This document shows positions 11,785-61,811 of a stretch of DNA of 64,000 bases, piece after piece; within the stretch, counting starts at the first letter, position 1, and every line of letters begins with the position of its first letter. Position numbers and translations under genes: made by a program. A model generated the notes under the pieces. It worked only from the letters and a program-made list of their open reading frames with translations, was not told the DNA's origin and ran no database searches. This stretch comes from Pseudaquidulcibacter saccharophilus (GTDB taxonomy: Bacteria > Pseudomonadota > Alphaproteobacteria > Caulobacterales > Aquidulcibacteraceae): positions 949,856 to 1,013,855 of the forward strand of contig NZ_JAHWUS010000001.1 of the NCBI RefSeq assembly GCF_019455445.1. The letters run 5' to 3'.

Positions 11785-12858
11785 TTATTTGGCGAATGAA
11801 AATAGCTTACCTTTTTTATTACTCATTAATGACGTCAAATATCGTCTAACAGGAATATCGTAATATTTATCCAAGATTACGCAAAGTATGATTAGGGAAA
11901 ACACGAACAAACAAGCCAATAAATATGTGGGTTGTATGTTGTATTTATTTAGAATTTCACCATAGAAACCAACTATTGGGGCGTGCAAGATATATAAAGC
12001 GTAAGAAGTAATCCCCAAAAAATCGAAAGTTTTATCAAGTTTTTTATATGTTGATGTACAAACAGCAAACATAACTAAAATTGGAATGCATAACATTTGC
12101 ATGAATAATCTAAATGTTACACTTACTTCCGGCATTAAAAATATTACTGATAGCAATGCTATTATTATGATGCCAATGATTGGGGGAAGGCTGATTTTTT
12201 TGTGTAATTCAAGACGATGAAATAGAACTCCGAGACCAAATGAGTATAATGTTCTTAAAATACCCATGTACCACGTGCCAAATAAGAATCCGCCACCTTC
12301 AATGCCTAAATAATATGATAGTGTAGTATAAGCTGCGCCTGAAATTAATATCAAAAGTGCCAATAGCTTGGTGTTTTTTATAAAAACCAAAAATGCCGCA
12401 AAGAAAATATTGACTAGCAACTCATAAAATAATGACCACGCTGCAAAATTAATAAACAACGAAGAATCAGCCTGATGTTTATATAATGATGGAATGAAAA
12501 ATAGGTTTAATAGGGCGTTTATCAATTTGCCAAAGTAGACATCCTTCAAGGTGAAAAGGTGGTAAATTTCAACGGCCGATGCGAAAATCGTTCCCAGAAA
12601 GAATAATGGATAAAGCCTTATAATCCGTCTAATCAAAAATTCTTTGAAGTTATATTTTGCAATTCCTTGTACCCAATACGTATGGGTTAAAACAAACCCG
12701 CTTAGAACAAAGAACAAATCTACGGCTAAATATGCATAGTGAATTTCATGTTTTATTAAAGGTGGCTCTGCTTTGTAGAGATGAAAGAAAACTACAAAAA
12801 TAGCTGCAAACCCTCTTATGCCATCTAATAATATAAATCTTTGGTTTTCTTTATGCAC
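11785..12858 (-). CDS. Acyltransferase-3 family membrane protein
   Basis: 357 residues with about ten hydrophobic segments. The N-terminus carries the acyltransferase-3 signature: LLDGIRGFAAIFVVFFHLYKA with the catalytic-type histidine, then DLFFVLSGFVLTHTYW, and an RIIRLYPLFFLG motif. OafA/NodX-type members O-acetylate surface sugars at the inner membrane. The start appears to be GTG. The gene stands alone between the exporter operon and tRNA-Thr, and is more AT-rich than its neighbours, which may indicate acquisition. It is a distant paralogue of 13250–14365. Confidence 0.88.
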   Translation of the reverse strand: MHKENQRFILLDGIRGFAAIFVVFFHLYKAEPPLIKHEIHYAYLAVDLFFVLSGFVLTHTYWVQGIAKYNFKEFLIRRIIRLYPLFFLGTIFASAVEIYHLFTLKDVYFGKLINALLNLFFIPSLYKHQADSSLFINFAAWSLFYELLVNIFFAAFLVFIKNTKLLALLILISGAAYTTLSYYLGIEGGGFLFGTWYMGILRTLYSFGLGVLFHRLELHKKISLPPIIGIIIIALLSVIFLMPEVSVTFRLFMQMLCIPILVMFAVCTSTYKKLDKTFDFLGITSYALYILHAPIVGFYGEILNKYNIQPTYLLACLFVFSLIILCVILDKYYDIPVRRYLTSLMSNKKGKLFSFAK

Positions 12859-13065
12859 GAGTGTTCAGCCTTTTTAAATTAAACTTATCTTAGATGTGCA
12901 TTTATTAATTTAAATGTGAAGGTATAAATACAATAAATGTGTTTATTGCACTGCAAATAGCTTTTTTGCTTTAAAAAGCAGCATAATTTCTTACATGCAA
13001 TGTATTGTTATATTGAAAGGGTTTGATATCTAATTATTTGAAATTATTAAAAAGGCAGTGAAAAC

Positions 13066-13140
13066 TGGTGCCGCAGAGAAGAATTGAACTTCCGACCCCG
13101 TCATTACCAATGACGTGCTCTACCACTGAGCTACTGCGGC
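13066..13140 (-). tRNA. tRNA-Thr (GGT), CCA encoded
   Basis: A complete cloverleaf is visible on the minus strand: acceptor GCCGCAG/CTGCGGC, D arm GCTCAGTGGTAGAGC, anticodon loop TTGGTAA giving GGT (threonine, ACC/ACT codons), and a T arm containing GTTCAAT. The 3' CCA is encoded at 13066–13068. It lies between the two acyltransferase genes on the same strand. Confidence 0.95.
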
Positions 13141-13249
13141 ATACCGAATGTGGTATTAATTTTTGCTTCCTAGTCTAAAATATTTCTTATGTGAAGTGTT
13201 TTATATGATATTTTTTTCACAAATGCTGCAAGCGGTTTCGTTTGTTATT

Positions 13250-14365
13250 TTACGCGGTTTTAGTTTTTACAATTTTAGAAATCCACCGTCTTTCCATAGC
13301 TTGTTTTAATTTTACCCTGACCGGCGCATCATAATATTTTGCCAATAAATATGAAATTATAATCATAGACGGTATGGTTGCTAAGCAGAGGGTTATTACG
13401 GCAATATTTCCCTCTAAGTGGAAAATATTATTTGCAAAAAAGCCGATAAAGGCAATTATTGGTGAATGGATAACATATAATGGGAATGAAATATCCGCCA
13501 AAAAGTTTGATGATTTAAGCCAATTTCCACTTATTTTATGCTTGGATGCAAATATTATAAGGGTTGGTGAAATCAATGTGAATAACAATGGGTAAACCCA
13601 AAATGGCAATAATCTTCTAGGCAGGCAGAAGAACAATATCAAAGACAAAATCAACGCTATTGTTACCACAATATTTGCTTGGGTTATTTTGTTGCGAATT
13701 CTAAAAATATATACACCCATTGGGAAGCAGAATAATACCCTTAATAATCCGCCCATCATTGTTGGTTCATCTGTCTTTGGTGAATTGATGCCTAGGCTTT
13801 GAAATGCCCAATACATAAAGCCCAAAAATCCAAATAAGCATAAAATAAAAAGCTGCTTATCGCTTAATTTTATAATCAACAAGGCAAAGCCAATATATGC
13901 GATATATTCAAAAAACAATGACCATAAAGCCCCATTAAGGGGAAACATATCTTGCCCGCCAAATAGTGCTTTTGGAACCATGAATATAGTCAAGATAAGG
14001 TCGTTTAGGCTGTTACTATCAAGGGCGCCTGTAACCCATAACGCCATTGATTGAATAACCATAAAGCCGATAAACGCGCTTAAAACCACCATTGGGCTTA
14101 GGCGTATAATTCGAAGGGTGATGAATTTTTTAAATTCAAAACCATTTTGCAATTTTCTTTCATAAGAATATGCAAGCACAAAACCACTAAGCATAAAGAA
14201 GAAATCAACAGCCATCATCGACATGCCGATCACGTCTGTTTGATTGCCATAGCACCAGGCATTAAACCTTATTAAACAATGGTACATAAATACAAATATC
14301 GCCGCAATGCCGCGCATGCCGTCAAGAATTGCAAAATGTGATGTTTCTTCGGTGCTTTTGTTCAA
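13250..14365 (-). CDS. Acyltransferase-3 family membrane protein
   Basis: 371 residues with about ten membrane helices. It has the family signatures ILDGMRGIAAIFVFMYHCLI near residue 15 and DFFFMLSGFVLAYSYERKL near residue 52, followed by RIIRLSPMVVLS. It probably acylates a surface or periplasmic glycan at the inner membrane. The start is TTG in the best frame and no good ribosome site is visible. It resembles 11785–12858 in length, topology and motifs, on the other side of tRNA-Thr, so the pair may be an old duplication or two acquisitions. Confidence 0.88.
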   Translation of the reverse strand: MNKSTEETSHFAILDGMRGIAAIFVFMYHCLIRFNAWCYGNQTDVIGMSMMAVDFFFMLSGFVLAYSYERKLQNGFEFKKFITLRIIRLSPMVVLSAFIGFMVIQSMALWVTGALDSNSLNDLILTIFMVPKALFGGQDMFPLNGALWSLFFEYIAYIGFALLIIKLSDKQLFILCLFGFLGFMYWAFQSLGINSPKTDEPTMMGGLLRVLFCFPMGVYIFRIRNKITQANIVVTIALILSLILFFCLPRRLLPFWVYPLLFTLISPTLIIFASKHKISGNWLKSSNFLADISFPLYVIHSPIIAFIGFFANNIFHLEGNIAVITLCLATIPSMIIISYLLAKYYDAPVRVKLKQAMERRWISKIVKTKTA

Positions 14366-54956: not shown

Positions 54957-55931
54957 TTGTTTTATTTGGCGGGTGTGAATAATATTTACCCCGCCAATTC
55001 TTTGAATATTGAACGCGCCATTGAAACCTTACAAAATGGCGAACTTATCGGTTTGCCGACCGAAACTGTTTATGGGTTAGGCGGGGATGCAACCCGCGAT
55101 GATGTGGTTGCCAAGATTTTTGCCACCAAAAACCGCCCGAATTTTAACCCACTTATATCCCATGTAACGGGGCTTGAGATGGCGTCAAAATACGGTGTTT
55201 TTGATGAAATCGCGCTAAAGATTGCCGAAAAATTTTGGCAAGGGCCACTTACCATTGTTGTTCCCAAAAATAATGCTGGTGTATGCGATCTTGCCTGTGC
55301 TGGGCTTGAAACCATTGCAATACGCGCACCTAATCACCCAGTGGCACAAGAAATTATTTCGGGGTTTGGAAAACCAATTGCCGCCCCATCGGCCAATGTT
55401 TCGGGGTCAATCTCACCAACTTCGGCACGTGATGTTGCGGCTGAACTTGGTGATAAATTAGGCGTTATCATTGACGGGGGCGATTGTATTGTCGGGCTTG
55501 AAAGCACTGTTGTTGGGGTGTTTGATGGTGAAATTCATCTACTACGTAAGGGCTTTTTCACTGCCGCAGATATTGAGAAGGCAATAGGAAAACGGGTTTT
55601 AACCCCAAGCCTTAATGATGAAAACGCCCCCAAATCCCCTGGCATGTTGCTGCGCCATTATTCACCCAAAACGCCAATGATTTTAAATGCCGAAAGCGCA
55701 GATGAGGATGAGGTTTTCCTTGCGTTTGGCAAAGTTCCAACAGGTGTAAAGGGGGCATTTATCCAACTTTCGGAGAGCCAAAACCTTACCGAAGTTGCCG
55801 CTAACCTTTACCGCGCTATGCGTAACGCCGATTTACAAAACCCAAAAACTATAAAAGTTGCACACATCCCAAATGTGGGGCTAGGTGAGGCGATTAATGA
55901 CAGGTTGGTGCGAGCGGCGGGCACTATTTAA
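54957..55931 (+). CDS. tsaC: L-threonylcarbamoyladenylate synthase, Sua5/YrdC type
   Basis: 324 residues. It makes threonylcarbamoyl-AMP for t6A modification of ANN-decoding tRNAs. The YrdC domain (about 15–190) has LIGLPTETVYGLGGDATRDDVV, KIFATKNRPNFNPLISHV and IAAPSANVSGSISPTSARDV; the C-terminal Sua5 domain includes SPGMLLRHYSPKTPM and ends GLGEAINDRLVRAAGTI. The start is uncertain: TTG at 54957, TTG at 54966 or GTG at 54975, none with a good ribosome site. A decayed copy of its tail lies at 57279. Confidence 0.93.
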   Translation: MFYLAGVNNIYPANSLNIERAIETLQNGELIGLPTETVYGLGGDATRDDVVAKIFATKNRPNFNPLISHVTGLEMASKYGVFDEIALKIAEKFWQGPLTIVVPKNNAGVCDLACAGLETIAIRAPNHPVAQEIISGFGKPIAAPSANVSGSISPTSARDVAAELGDKLGVIIDGGDCIVGLESTVVGVFDGEIHLLRKGFFTAADIEKAIGKRVLTPSLNDENAPKSPGMLLRHYSPKTPMILNAESADEDEVFLAFGKVPTGVKGAFIQLSESQNLTEVAANLYRAMRNADLQNPKTIKVAHIPNVGLGEAINDRLVRAAGTI

Positions 55932-56038
55932 AGACATGCTACTAGCTTGGGATATTGCAACAGTTATTTCTACTAAAAATTTGTATTATTAGCTTGATTT
56001 AAACAACCACAGACTAAATAATCAGCTTCAATCAATAT

Positions 56039-57205
56039 ATGAGGTTGGCTGTGCTATTAAGAAAACTGCATTTTTTTTATTTATTTAGTGCCATAATTAT
56101 TGCAGCCTTTTCATTGGTTGGTAATTCATCATTCGCGAAAGATGACATATTTGCGAGTGAAACATGCTCTCAAGGTGTTTTCAATCTTGGCGCAGAAAAG
56201 AGATTTCCAACTGCAACTAAAAACCTCGAATATATTTTTGATTATTTGCATATTTTTGATGTTGAGGATGATAAATATTTTGCACCTGATCGTAGAACGG
56301 TCATGGAATATTTTAAAGTTAGTCCTGAAATAATTGAAGACTTAATTAGTGAAGATGTACCAAGTAAGGAAAAATTAATTGCGTATTATCGCCCTTTGCT
56401 TAATGAAGCAAATAATGCGCCAAATTATTTTAGAGATGATCTTGCAAATAATAATTTTGATATAAAGGATTTTACCGAAATAAATGGTTTTGTATTTATG
56501 ATTCCCAAATTTTTCGAATGTTTAAATGGTATCAACAGTCAAGTTGATAAATATGACGTTGGTAATAAAATTAATATATCCGCCTTACTGGAACAATACC
56601 GTAAATATTCTTCAGAATATCTTTTAAGGCATGAAAAAGAAGTGGTTGCATATTCAGATAAAATTACAAATTCCGATAAAATTTCTGTTTATGATGCCTT
56701 TAATGCATACACTCTTACATCAATTTTGTTATATGATGATATTAGCTTATTGCAATTGTATAAAGAAGGATTTCAAAAAAAGCCTGAGCTAAAAAATAAG
56801 ATTTTAAAAGCTTATGCCCATGCCCAACAAGTAATCGCACAAATTAATAATTTAAATAATAATGGGCAAAAGTGTATGATTTCTGATAATGATAAAGCAA
56901 TTAGGAACAAATATATAAATCCTGACTTTGGTAATAGTAATGATATTTCTCAAAGATTGATACCGACAAACGGTATCGATATAAATTTTATAGCTTCATT
57001 TGATGTGGATGCTCAAGGGATGCCTCATAATATTACTTTCGAGCCAAAGGTTGAAGGCAAATATTTTGAAGGTGGGGATAGTGATGCGGAAAAAAACATT
57101 GCCGCTATGACTGAAAATATAAATGCTTATAATTATGTGCCAGGTCTTAAAGATTGCAAACCCTATGCAGTTAGGGGGAAAGTAAACTTTGACTTTAAAG
57201 AATAG
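56039..57205 (+). CDS. Secreted four-cysteine protein with TonB-C-like end (paralogue 1)
   Basis: 388 residues. A signal peptide (about residues 1–33, ending SSFAKDD) is followed by an acidic, Asn/Asp-rich helical domain. The C-terminal 75 residues show a TonB-C-like pattern: FIASFDVDAQGMPHNITF, then NAYNYVPGLKDCKPYAVRGKVNFDF. The mature chain has exactly four cysteines (ETCSQG, FECLNG, QKCMIS, KDCKPY), each with a counterpart in 58851–59798. Function unknown. The gene is very AT-rich compared with tsaC upstream, suggesting transfer. Confidence 0.7.
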   Translation: MRLAVLLRKLHFFYLFSAIIIAAFSLVGNSSFAKDDIFASETCSQGVFNLGAEKRFPTATKNLEYIFDYLHIFDVEDDKYFAPDRRTVMEYFKVSPEIIEDLISEDVPSKEKLIAYYRPLLNEANNAPNYFRDDLANNNFDIKDFTEINGFVFMIPKFFECLNGINSQVDKYDVGNKINISALLEQYRKYSSEYLLRHEKEVVAYSDKITNSDKISVYDAFNAYTLTSILLYDDISLLQLYKEGFQKKPELKNKILKAYAHAQQVIAQINNLNNNGQKCMISDNDKAIRNKYINPDFGNSNDISQRLIPTNGIDINFIASFDVDAQGMPHNITFEPKVEGKYFEGGDSDAEKNIAAMTENINAYNYVPGLKDCKPYAVRGKVNFDFKE

Positions 57206-57487
57206 CGTATAGATAAAATATGCAAAAAATGGATAAGTTATAAAGACTGCTTTGATTATGTATATGGATATAAAGCGGGCGATTAACGACAGGTTACAAC
57301 GTGCTGCCGGGTTAAATAAATAATAGAAAAACTAAAGTCATATAAGCATAAAATAGAAGTTATTGATTAAATCCTCTTTTTGCCTCTAGAAATTATATTT
57401 TGAGAGGATTTTGTACAACCTTCAAGCAGTTTACAAAGGTTATAACATAAATATAATTATTTATAATATTGTGCGAAGGAGGATGTT
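57206..57487. other. AT-rich spacer with a tsaC-tail remnant and an inverted repeat
   Basis: Besides the remnant at 57279–57323, AAATCCTCT (57369–57377) pairs with AGAGGATTT (57403–57411) across a 25-base loop. It could be a terminator-like or regulatory fold in front of the Sel1 gene; no T tract follows. The rest is AT-rich and without frames. Confidence 0.5.
57279..57323 (+). pseudogene. Remnant of a tsaC/sua5 3' end
   Basis: Read in frame, this stretch encodes AINDRLQRAAGLNK and a stop. The tail of tsaC (55890–55931) encodes AINDRLVRAAGTI and a stop. Ten of eleven leading residues agree, while the DNA differs mainly at third codon positions, so it looks like the end of a diverged homologue rather than a recent duplicate. 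No upstream part of the gene remains in frame beyond a few codons. Confidence 0.7.
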
Positions 57488-58702
57488 TTGACTGCCGCCA
57501 AATCCGTATTAAAGCTTTTTATAACTTCCTTTTTTGTATTCACACCAATTTTTGCAATCAGCAATATTGCAAATGCGCAAACAAATAATGCGCCATCAAA
57601 GCAAGATATTGCCAAAGTTTTTTACCAAAATGGCGAAAAAGCAAATAGTTCAAGGGATTATTCAGCGGCATTAGAATATTATAAAAAAGCTGCCAACCTA
57701 GATCATGTTGAGGCAATGAACATGATTGGTTTTTACTATCAAAATGGTTATGGCATAAATGCAGATTATACCAAGGCTTTTGAGTGGTATAAAAAAGCTG
57801 CGGCGCTTGGCAGCAGTAATGCGATGAATAATATTGGAAATTTATATGTTGATGGTCTGGGCGTAACCAAAGATTATGCCAAGGCAATAGAATGGCTTCA
57901 AAAAGCCGCCTTACTTAATAGCCCGGCCGCATTCAATAATATTGGATATATATATGAAAATGGCGGTGATGGCGAAGATTATAGCAAATTAGGGGTTTCA
58001 GCCGATACCGCAAGGATGCTTTCAGGTTACGGCGTAAAAAAAGATTATACCAAGGCAAGGGAAAATTATGAAAAGGCGCTTGGCATAAATCCAAATTACT
58101 CAAGGGCGTTGTTTCACTTGGGTAATATATATGAACAAGGATTAGGAGTAACGCAGGATTACTCAACAGCAGGGGCATATTATATTAAAGCGGTTAATAA
58201 TGGCGATATTGATTCAATTCTTAGGCTGGCTAATTTTTATTATGATGGCAGAGGTGTAACGCAAGATGATACGACTGCCTTGAATTTATATGAGACATGG
58301 TATGGAAAGGCTCTTAACGCAGACGAAAAACTATTTTATTCTACCAGAATAAATCAGTTAGAAGTAAAATTAAAAGCTAAAAAAGATAATGAAGATGCCG
58401 CAGCATTAAAGGCAGAAAAAGAAGCAGAAGAGCAGGCTGAATGTCGTCATCTTTCAGACGAAATGGATACTATATCATCGGAACAAGACAGGCTTGAAAC
58501 TGCAATTGATTTAAGGAAAACAGCTATAATGCTTGCGCAACAAAACTTGTCGCTTGCTTCAAGTCGGGGGGCATATACAGGTGGATATGCTGCGCAACTG
58601 GCGGAATTACAATCTGGATATGCAAATATGGTTAGAGAGTATAATTCAATGGTGAAAAAGCGTAATAATTTAGTGACTAAATATCGTGATAAATGCGAGT
58701 AA
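57488..58702 (+). CDS. Secreted Sel1-repeat protein with C-terminal coiled coil
   Basis: 404 residues. The start is TTG at 57488: AGGAGG (57477–57482) is five bases upstream, and the ATG at 57483 is too close. A signal peptide (about 1–31, ending NIANAQ) precedes five or six Sel1 (TPR-like) repeats between residues 38 and 275, e.g. AMNNIGNLYVDGLGVTKDYA. The last 115 residues are a Glu/Lys/Gln-rich coiled coil bounded by two cysteines (QAECRHL and YRDKCE). Sel1 proteins act as scaffolds. It sits between two paralogous secreted proteins. Confidence 0.88.
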   Translation: MTAAKSVLKLFITSFFVFTPIFAISNIANAQTNNAPSKQDIAKVFYQNGEKANSSRDYSAALEYYKKAANLDHVEAMNMIGFYYQNGYGINADYTKAFEWYKKAAALGSSNAMNNIGNLYVDGLGVTKDYAKAIEWLQKAALLNSPAAFNNIGYIYENGGDGEDYSKLGVSADTARMLSGYGVKKDYTKARENYEKALGINPNYSRALFHLGNIYEQGLGVTQDYSTAGAYYIKAVNNGDIDSILRLANFYYDGRGVTQDDTTALNLYETWYGKALNADEKLFYSTRINQLEVKLKAKKDNEDAAALKAEKEAEEQAECRHLSDEMDTISSEQDRLETAIDLRKTAIMLAQQNLSLASSRGAYTGGYAAQLAELQSGYANMVREYNSMVKKRNNLVTKYRDKCE

Positions 58703-58850
58703 ACGCTTTTAAAGTTTGCCTCTAAAGCAATTTGACAAAAACCTATGACGCATCATGCGCAATACCAATCTATAATGCGCGGCGGGTGGATAAAGGCTGG
58801 ATAATTCGATAGAATTATAATATCAACTAAAAGCAGAATTGGAACTGGTA

Positions 58851-59798
58851 ATGAAGTTGAAATTGTCTTTGGTTTTAATGGGTTGTTTGGCATTTTGGGG
58901 CGCTGACGCGTTTGCTAAACCCTTGGAATATTCAAATTGTCGTGACTTGCCGTCATTATATTTATTGCCACAAAGCGATGCGTTCAAAACCAAGTTTTCT
59001 GCATCATTGGACAATTCTTCACAAAGTTCCATAGAAATATATAATCAGTTTCCAGAAGTATTCAAAAGCGACTTGAATAAGACAGAGTTCAGCGCATATG
59101 AGCTTAATCAAATTGATATTTTCCGAAATGTTTTTGTAAAAAAATATCGTGAATGTGGTTCGGAATTATCAGAAAATTCAAAAACCGCTTTAGGTACCGA
59201 CGCAAATATTGCGCGCTTAAATTCATATCTTGATGAATATGTTTTGCGCCTTGCCGATGGTTTTGGCGATAAAATAAACAATGCCACAAAATTTAAGGTC
59301 GAAGATTTATACAATTATAAGCGTGAATTCGATGATGTTTTTTATACTTATAGCGGATTTTATAACGGCCTAATTGAAACCAAACCCGCACTTTTAAACA
59401 AGCTAAAAACCGCCGAGGCAAAGATTAAACTTGCTATTGAACAGGCGTACGCAATTGATGCGCGGGGCGGGACGTGCCTTATTGAAGATAATAAAAAGGC
59501 ATATTTATTGATGCCGACTTATTCATTTAATCATAAGACTTTTCCGCAATTCAACGGGGCGGTTACACCGCGCAAAATATTATTTGCTGTTGATGCAAAC
59601 GGACATTCCACAAATATAAAAGCATCGCCACCATTTACAAAAAGCGATTTCAAATCCGAAAAAGATATTGCCAAAGCCAATGAGGAAATCGGAAACTATA
59701 TTTCAACCGCAGTCATCTATCCACCGGCAAAAAATTGTATTGGCCAAATAGGGGTGGGGGAAACAACCGTTGATTTATACCATATCCATCATCATTGA
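58851..59798 (+). CDS. Secreted four-cysteine protein with TonB-C-like end (paralogue 2)
   Basis: 315 residues from the ATG at 58851, preferred over the TTG at 58839 because GGAACTGG sits between them. A signal peptide ends near ADAFAK. The mature chain has four cysteines (SNCRDL, RECGSE, GTCLIE, KNCIGQ) in the same order as paralogue 1. Shared blocks are KPALLNKLKTAEAKIKLAIEQ and FAVDANGHSTNIK. The C-terminus ends YHIHHH, a natural histidine tail. Function unknown; it shares the cluster with the Sel1 protein. Confidence 0.7.
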   Translation: MKLKLSLVLMGCLAFWGADAFAKPLEYSNCRDLPSLYLLPQSDAFKTKFSASLDNSSQSSIEIYNQFPEVFKSDLNKTEFSAYELNQIDIFRNVFVKKYRECGSELSENSKTALGTDANIARLNSYLDEYVLRLADGFGDKINNATKFKVEDLYNYKREFDDVFYTYSGFYNGLIETKPALLNKLKTAEAKIKLAIEQAYAIDARGGTCLIEDNKKAYLLMPTYSFNHKTFPQFNGAVTPRKILFAVDANGHSTNIKASPPFTKSDFKSEKDIAKANEEIGNYISTAVIYPPAKNCIGQIGVGETTVDLYHIHHH

Positions 59799-59904
59799 TT
59801 AGAATATTAAATTCTTTAAAAATGCACTTCAACAAAGTTCTCTTACCAAAACATGTGCAAAGAATTTTTGGAAACCGCGTTTTTAATTGAATTTCTAACA
59901 ATTA

Positions 59905-60008: not shown

Positions 60009-61811
60009 TCAATCAAATTCCGCCACCAAATGCCCCTTGGCGACTTCGATAAGTTTCGGGCGATATTGCTCGCCGTCACCATCCACAAGTTTTGATTTCA
60101 TAAAGCGTAATTGTGCCTTTGCATCCATTGGTGATGGAAGATCGCCTTCAAGTTTGATGCGCTTGCGTGATTTTTCAATTTTTGGATCAGGTATTGGTGC
60201 GGCGGATATAAGCGCCTTGGTATATGGGTGACGGGCATCGTTATAGATGCTTTCGCGGTCGGCGGTTTCAACCACACGCCCCAAATACATCACCATAATG
60301 CGGTGTGAAACTTCGCGGACAACCGCCAAATCATGGGAAATAAATAGCATCCCAAGTTTAAATTCACGCTGCAAATCCAAAAGCAAATCAATGATTTGTG
60401 CGCGAATTGAAACATCAAGTGCCGAGACCGCTTCATCACAAACCACGAATTTCGGTTTCAAAATCATTGCACGGGCGATGCCAACACGTTGGTTTTGGCC
60501 ACCAGAAAATTCGTGCGGATAGCGGTTAATCCAATTGGGATCAAGGCCCACACGTTCCATAATTTCGCGCACTTTTTCATCGCGCTCTTTACCATTCATA
60601 AGTGGGTAATGCACCAATAATGGTTCGGCAATAGAGGCGCCAATCGTCATTCTTGGGTCCAATGATGCCAATGGATCTTGGAAAACAATGGTCATATCCT
60701 TGCGGTCGGCACGAATTTCGCTTGCCTTCTTTTGCGAAATATCTTTGCCAAGCCACGCAATCGCACCCGATGTTGGTGGTATAAGTTTTAATACCGCGCG
60801 GGCAAGCGTTGATTTACCACAACCAGATTCACCAACCACGCCAATTGTTTCACCCTTGCGCACAGTAATATCAACGCCATCAACGGCCTTTAGTGGCATT
60901 TTATGCGGGAAAAGCCCTGCCTTGACCACAATTGGGAAATGAACTTTTAAATCCTTACCTTCAACTACGATTTCGTCTTTTTCGCTTGGTGCGGCTGCAA
61001 GCTGCGCGCCTTTACGCGTCTTTGCATCGATACGTGGCACGGCGGCAAGTAGCTTTTTTGTATATTCGTCTTGTGGGTTATAGAAAATATCTTCAACGCT
61101 GCCTTGTTCAACATATGCGCCCTTATTCATAACCTGCACATGGTCGGCAAGGCGGGCAACAACGCCCATATCGTGGGTTACAAGGGCAATTGCCGCACCG
61201 GTTTCGCGGCGTAATTCTTCCATCAACTCAAGAACCTGTGCCTGAACGGTTACATCAAGTGCGGTTGTCGGTTCGTCGGCAATCAAAAGCTTGGGTGAAC
61301 ACAACATGGCAATGGCAATCATCACCCTTTGGCGCATTCCGCCTGATAATTCGTGGGGATATTGGTTAAGTCTGCGTTTGGCTTCGGGGATACGAACACG
61401 TTCAAGCCAATCAACGCAATGTTTCGCCGCCGCATCGCCACGCAATTGTGTATGAAGTTTAAGAACTTCATCCATTTGCGCCCCAATTTTCATATGGGGG
61501 GTAAGGGAGGTGAGGGGATCTTGGAAAATCATCGACATTTGATTGCCGCGAATTTCATTCAATTCTTTTGATTTAAGGCCAAGGATTTCTTTGCCATTAA
61601 ATTTTATTGACCCGTTCGCAACACCATTGCGTGCCAAAAGCCCCATTGCGGTTAAAAAAGTTTGTGATTTGCCAGAACCAGATTCGCCAACAATCGCCAC
61701 ACATTCACCGGCATTAATATCAAGATTAATGCCTTTAACCGCGTTGATTATGCCATCGGGGGTCGTGAAGTTAATTTTTAAATCACGCACACTTAGAATT
61801 GGCTGTTGCAA
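60009..61811 (-). CDS. yejF: ABC transporter with two ATPase domains, YejF/peptide type
   Basis: 600 residues with two Opp/Dpp-type ABC domains. Domain 1: [10 protein letters not shown] (Walker A), [22 protein letters not shown]. Domain 2 (from about 290): [34 protein letters not shown]. Each is followed by the oligopeptide-type NPxxPYT-like tail ([18 protein letters not shown]). This matches YejF of the microcin C/peptide importer. The permease and binding-protein genes must lie elsewhere. The start is TTG at 61811, with GGGAG about eight bases upstream. Confidence 0.88.

Follow-up and report, generated by a model that had tools for sequence, protein, structure and literature searches.

Two paralogous, probably exported proteins with TonB C-terminal-domain-like ends beside a Sel1-repeat protein in Pseudaquidulcibacter saccharophilus

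What are the two four-cysteine proteins that stand on either side of a Sel1-repeat protein in Pseudaquidulcibacter saccharophilus, and do the three act together? The question arises from a 64,000-nucleotide stretch of contig NZ_JAHWUS010000001.1 (positions 949,856 to 1,013,855 of the forward strand; hereafter the window), the plus strand of which carries the genes for protein A, the Sel1-repeat protein and protein B between a tsaC-like gene and an ABC transporter gene. An initial annotation made from the letters of this DNA had placed the trio here, with A of 388 and B of 315 residues, as the open reading frames (ORFs) bear out, and had proposed a periplasmic assembly held by disulfides, perhaps a new partner system for Sel1 scaffolds. 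The present study leads us to favor, with moderate confidence, a different reading, in which A and B are diverged copies of a secreted, unanchored periplasmic protein type that joins a helical front to a degenerate, disulfide-clasped TonB C-terminal domain and has an adaptor role. That confidence applies to the identity and architecture of the proteins more than to the binding role.

Judged by sequence comparison, A and B are homologous, diverged copies of one protein type, as had been proposed from an alignment by eye. BLASTP gave 61.6 bits (30% identity over 260 columns, E 4e-15) and, with the cysteines masked, 53.5 bits (E 1.8e-12); window-shuffled B reached a maximum of 32.3 bits among the 500 best reported of 2000, and reversed B 15.0 bits. 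Profile–profile comparison of two-species alignments gave a probability of 97.6% and an E value of 4.5e-12 over 244 columns. The claim that four mature cysteines (C1 to C4; Table 1) lie in matching contexts holds for C2, C3 and C4, which occupy invariant columns of the A/B alignment. C1 does not fall in a single column, because A has 46 extra residues between C1 and C2 (118 versus 72), and its equivalence would depend on context judged by eye. The C2–C3 and C3–C4 spacings are 118 and 94 in A, and 107 and 87 in B. The helix preceding C3 (KPELKNKIL/KPALLNKLK) and the endings FDVDAQG/FAVDANG are as first described. A fifth cysteine of B, at position 12, lies within the signal peptide and is missing from the 80% identical B orthologue. 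Both proteins have cleavable-type signal peptides, called from the sequence by eye, and a Pro-rich linker was read in neither.

AlphaFold models built from four-row alignments had a mean predicted local distance difference test score (pLDDT) of 66.8 for B and 74.5 for A, rising by ten-residue block to 78–91 over B 241–310 and 79–94 over A 311–388. The two models share one topology, a helical front followed by a β-β-α-β end, although their shared input of four sequences means that they are not independent. In Foldseek searches of the Protein Data Bank (PDB), the first matches to B were 6fip (E 0.11, probability 0.97) and 6i97 (E 0.14, probability 0.96), and A found 6i97_D first (E 0.05, probability 1.00) and 6fip third (E 0.26, probability 0.98); both are entries for the TonB C-terminal domain of P. 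aeruginosa. VIA-align superposed B 213–313 on 88 of the 90 residues of 6i97_D (Z 6.4, root-mean-square deviation 3.4, rank 13) and A 283–388 on 85 of them (Z 7.1, root-mean-square deviation 3.0, rank 2). The weight of this match would lie in the near-complete coverage of the target and the several TonB entries in each list. That the VIA-align lists are without another clear family carries no evidential weight, and the helical entries that rank higher than the TonB ones or between them, such as PI3K coiled coil, spectrin and designed proteins, were judged to be common arrangements and left unused; no match was established for the helical front of either protein.

Profile comparison points the same way. 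When the ends of A and B were aligned by hhalign to 23 TonB_C domains of the lineage, the score was 28.4 (probability 52.6%, E 1.4e-4), above all 60 of 60 column-shuffled controls, the best of which reached 17.7; with cysteines masked the score was 22.7 (probability 15.3%). The 23 domains, comprising 21 loci and the relatives P0007 and P0008 described below, had all been picked for having a cysteine pair. In the alignment a [VI]DxxG turn and a P-x(4)-C motif ahead of the last strand agree with TonB_C. Several results weigh against this assignment. No Foldseek match reached E ≤ 0.001, the VIA-align Z scores stayed below 8, in a range open to chance arrangements, and the models are of moderate confidence (pLDDT below 50 over B 1–70). 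Pfam TonB_C (PF03544, gathering cut-off 24.6 bits) gave no match to A or B at E values up to 5, nor any to their orthologues, and neither protein is among the 17 that PF03544 finds in the genus. An HMMER model of the lineage TonB_C domains gave 1.1–6.9 bits, not far above the −0.3 and −1.4 of reversed controls. Moreover, A has largely lost the YP helix of TonB_C. On balance, a TonB C-terminal-domain-like fold for these ends is supported but not proven. The initially proposed TonB-C-like ending is thus favored by the Foldseek ranks, hhalign and the two relatives, and is not seen by Pfam in A or B themselves. A and B would not be TonBs, but rather TonB-ended secreted proteins with a degenerate domain. 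Among the ORFs of the window between 50 and 64 kb, read by eye and not scanned with Pfam, no exbB or exbD was seen; adjacency of these genes to a TonB gene is common but not obligatory.

A weak match of B in one genome of the genus (G001, E 0.05) led to P0007, and a similar protein, P0008, is encoded by UBA1933 (G003), a Hyphomonadaceae metagenome-assembled genome and, of those searched, the sole other one in which A/B-type proteins were found. The order of the four cysteines is common to A, B and these relatives, in which a C2–C3 spacing of 104 (P0007) and 107 (P0008) compares with 107 in B; C1–C2 is 86 and 83, and C3–C4 is 78 and 77, the longer C3–C4 distance of A and B being in line with the extra residues that the alignment places ahead of the helix. 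Unlike A and B, they have a Pro-rich stretch after the signal peptide and score significantly against Pfam TonB_C (33.1 and 33.2 bits). Both lie beside ferredoxin-like and reductase-like genes (named by eye), with no Sel1 gene in the surrounding 12 kb (P0007) and 9 kb (P0008) that were read. Alignment by hhalign of P0007/P0008 to B spanned 199 columns (E 5e-4, probability 31%), and BLASTP of the UBA1933 orthologue B′ with P0008 gave E 2e-5. For A the hhalign result (E 0.23) was not significant, and the shuffle controls likewise count against extending the tie to A: of 1000 shuffles, the real score was reached by 131 for A–P0007, 4 for A–P0008, 236 for A′–P0007 and 141 for A′–P0008, as opposed to 0 for B–P0007, 22 for B–P0008, 2 for B′–P0007 and 0 for B′–P0008. 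The tie of the pair to P0007/P0008 therefore rests on B, and the link would be modest for B and weak for A.

The place that P0008 holds in UBA1933, after an sdhA-like and before a ferredoxin-like gene, is occupied in the window's genome by two other small ORFs, HxlR-like and SnoaL-like by eye, which are not listed there in UBA1933. A remnant of a P0008-type gene also survives at this place (L076:3578-3670): some 30 codons from its C-terminal end, with 80% identity across 30 residues.

The cysteines themselves offer a further comparison. The genus has 17 PF03544 matches, which include orthologues and P0007/P0008 and so are not independent; 13 of them have a cysteine pair 77–78 residues apart, including the TonB P0009, which is encoded beside ExbB and two ExbD (G000:C4:840500-845000). 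The remaining four count against a general rule, two having a pair at 60 and two none. A count of 22/22 (21/21 distinct) with the pair came from a profile that itself contained cysteines, and the 13/17 figure is relied on instead. As a control, 28 loci across the order were read, part of the PF03544 matches and mostly the best-scoring per genome, and just one has a pair of such spacing (79, with 72–84 allowed). Most simply, then, C3–C4 would clasp the TonB_C domain internally in the manner typical of this lineage, and we consider the pair likelier to have been inherited from such domains than to form part of a network between proteins. C1–C2, with a spacing that varies from 72 to 118, may be a second internal pair, which is a guess. 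A limited literature search found no TonB C-terminal domain or energy transducer with an intramolecular disulfide.

Of the other 27 loci across the order, 20 have pairs at spacings of 11 (6 loci), 19–20 (10) or 33 (4) and 7 have none, which suggests that several different disulfide positions are possible within one domain family. Separately, a 382-residue open frame in another genome (L074, G033) contains six cysteines and matches TonB_C twice in succession.

Could the resemblance to TonB_C nonetheless reflect convergence on a common β-β-α-β plan, and not descent? The near absence of HMMER-level signal and the moderate models would fit such a history; the C3–C4 pair, the [VI]DxxG turn, the P-x(4)-C motif and P0007/P0008 agree against it, as does the hhalign score that exceeded every column shuffle, and we give convergence little credence.

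The cysteines bear equally on the proposal that A, the Sel1 protein and B form one periplasmic complex with intermolecular disulfides and the Sel1 protein as scaffold. In each chain the count of mature cysteines is even, which leaves every one of them a possible partner within its own chain, and C3–C4 resembles the intradomain pair of the genus TonB_C domains. On these grounds an assembly held by disulfides between the proteins is not supported. The broader idea of a partnership depends on how the three genes are distributed and how they have evolved.

In the genomes searched, A/B-type proteins are restricted to this lineage: they occur in 2 of the 5 genus genomes, 2 of 398 genomes of the order and 1 of 385 of the class, the last being the window's own genome (UBA1933 evidently lies outside that sample). 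With B as query, 5 of 61 genomes gave a match at E ≤ 1, three of them, besides the window's genome and UBA1933, weak and partial; those in G057 (E 0.07) and G026 (E 0.5) are too weak to count as relatives. With A as query, three of the five genus genomes gave matches, the third being an ORF in G004 (C2, E 0.0017) that looks HNH-type by eye and was judged a chance match. No relative was found in plasmids at E values up to 0.1 (B query only), in viral contigs with B or the A pair as query, or in the PDB by sequence search with B. PADLOC gave no match for A, the Sel1 protein, B or an additional UBA1933 gene described next.

In both species a span of some 4 kb holds all three genes, so that in UBA1933, the only other species with A and B, the Sel1 gene again adjoins them, but the order differs: tsaC–A–Sel1–B–ABC in the window and tsaC–Sel1–A′–B′–extra gene–ABC in UBA1933. 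The extra gene (L028:9181-10134), between B′ and the ABC transporter gene, encodes 317 residues without a Pfam or PADLOC match. Identity to the UBA1933 orthologues is 46% for A, 63% for the Sel1 protein, 80% for B, 88% for tsaC and 95% for the ABC transporter. Despite the different preceding gene, some 80 bases 5′ of A match those 5′ of A′, which lie between Sel1 and A′ (blastn E 9e-13; local score 75, shuffle maximum 29, n=50), and the stretch 5′ of B matches that 5′ of B′ (intergenic local score 96, shuffle maximum 22, n=50). Given this separately conserved upstream DNA and the changed order, A and B probably carry their own upstream signals and do not belong to one fixed operon. The ORFs around the tsaC-like gene of G001 and G002 look different, and tblastn there found none of the three genes; the G004 contig stops at its tsaC-like gene. 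The swapped order would be accounted for by a tandem duplication of Sel1 and A with subsequent reciprocal loss, but in the eight intergenic stretches tested tblastn at E values up to 1 found nothing left of A, B, Sel1 or their relatives, so that such an event has no direct trace.

The trio is AT-rich, as first noted, with a G+C content of 0.31 (A), 0.38 (Sel1) and 0.37 (B), whereas three flanking genes tested have 0.41–0.47. Nonsynonymous-to-synonymous ratios (dN/dS) against the UBA1933 orthologues are 0.19–0.37 across A, Sel1 and B, and purifying selection acts on all three, which look like constrained genes. Synonymous divergence (dS) was 1.07 for A (confidence interval 0.81–1.43), 1.11 for Sel1 (0.83–1.57) and 0.65 for B (0.49–0.86), and 0.58 (0.43–0.80), 0.75 (0.58–0.96) and 0.60 (0.50–0.73) for the three flanking genes. 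The raised values of A and Sel1 may suggest an older or separate history common to these two genes. This is weakened by the overlap of their intervals with those of B and tsaC.

The Sel1-repeat protein (P0002) matches Pfam Sel1 repeats (PF08238) over six stretches (145.6 bits, cut-off 30.7). It has exactly two cysteines, both kept in the UBA1933 orthologue, which bound its C-terminal region as the initial annotation had stated; the coiled coil placed between them remains a presumption. Among 398 genomes of the order, full-length matches to this region occur only in two, the A/B carriers, and partial matches in G095 (E 0.001) and G141 (E 0.007) were not counted as relatives. Sel1-repeat proteins in general occur in all five genus genomes, so that Sel1 as such does not track A and B; the specific Sel1 protein would accompany them through one shared ancestry, and two related species amount to roughly one independent observation. 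A limited literature search found no account of PF03544 together with Sel1. Elsewhere in the window's genome (L129:2144-6841, G000:C10), two adjoining cysteine-rich Sel1-type proteins lie by a 625-residue ORF that looks TonB-dependent receptor-like by eye.

Three observations thus favor one complex, namely the closeness of the genes in both species, the confinement of the full-length Sel1 C-terminal matches to the same two genomes, and the raised dS shared by A and Sel1. Set against the cysteine evidence, the changed order with separately conserved upstream DNA, the Sel1-free surroundings of P0007 and P0008 in the stretches read, and the generality of Sel1 proteins in the genus, they leave such a complex improbable. 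A stronger candidate, to which we would give somewhat less than an even chance, is that A and B are functionally unrelated to the Sel1 protein, the three being fast-evolving envelope genes that share an AT-rich accessory spot between tsaC and the ABC transporter gene. The swapped order, the separate upstream regions, the further gene in the UBA1933 spot, the low G+C content of all three genes and the B relative that sits elsewhere on the UBA1933 chromosome, with no Sel1 gene in the stretch read, are all as expected for such a spot; that the trio has stayed together in both species despite rearrangement, and that A and Sel1 agree in dS, are not. The partner system first proposed for Sel1 scaffolds therefore keeps the co-occurrence of the trio in its favor and loses the fixed arrangement, and the Sel1 protein may be regarded as a weak candidate partner, more plausibly for A than for B.

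If A and B are, as we favor, soluble proteins with a clasped TonB_C-like end, the signal peptide would deliver them to the periplasm with no membrane anchor retained, each with a helical front bearing two cysteines and an end closed by the C3–C4 disulfide within the chain. Export, oxidised pairs and function are all inferred in this scheme. Most likely, the TonB_C-like end would use its free β-strand edge to bind an extended stretch of some envelope protein, for which the binding of TonB boxes by TonB serves as the model, leaving the helical front to hold another partner. Cell-wall binding by TonB_C-like ends is an alternative. Energy transduction through ExbB/ExbD is unlikely, since no retained membrane anchor was seen. 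A bolder version, which we regard as a long shot, is that a clasped TonB C-terminal domain lost its membrane anchor, fused with a helical module and underwent duplication, to give a soluble periplasmic adaptor or decoy that competes with TonB for TonB boxes and is presented by a dedicated Sel1 scaffold co-diverged with A. If an adaptor or decoy reading is true, TonB C-terminal domains have been reused as soluble periplasmic parts, with a bearing on the regulation of TonB-dependent uptake. The cysteine pair of the genus TonB_C domains is in any case a testable structural feature, from which one would expect the TonB end in this group to be oxidised and stabilised.

Table 1. Features of the A–Sel1–B locus, in window positions
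Feature	Position	Strand	Remarks
tsaC-like gene	54957-55931		identity read from sequence
A upstream region	55943..56022	+	79% identity to region upstream of A′ in UBA1933
A	56039..57205	+	388 residues, ATG 56039; signal peptide (by eye)
A, helical part			C43 and C161
A, TonB_C-like end			C279 and C373
Sel1-repeat protein (P0002)	57488..58702	+	404 residues, TTG start at 57488
Sel1 protein, C-terminal region			presumed coiled coil between C319 and C403
B upstream region	58775..58850	+	within 82% identical block (58775-59817) common with UBA1933
B	58851..59798	+	315 residues from ATG 58851; signal peptide (by eye); alternative in-frame TTG at 58839 would give 319
B, helical part			C30 and C102
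B, TonB_C-like end			C209 and C296
ABC transporter gene	60009-61811	minus	identity read from sequence

Elsewhere in the window, two ORFs that look membrane acyltransferase-like by eye lie on both sides of a tRNA-Thr gene (11785-14365), in a stretch that is likewise AT-rich (G+C content 0.33 over 12001-14000).

Two known systems place the trio in context. The Sel1 protein is like ExoR, a periplasmic Sel1-like repeat protein of the Alphaproteobacteria (PMC7327166), in its Sel1 repeats, presumed export and presumed protein-binding role. It is unlike ExoR in its C-terminal region bounded by two cysteines, and scores 22.6 bits against the NCBIfam ExoR model, the cut-off of which is 450. With TonB_C domains (PF03544, as in the TonB P0009), A and B would share the predicted fold, the C3–C4 pair and the conserved D, G, P and C positions. 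In contrast to these domains, A and B fall below Pfam detection, show no retained anchor or Pro-rich linker, have 9–17 extra residues between the two cysteines, and carry a helical part of some 180–250 residues ahead of the TonB_C-like end.

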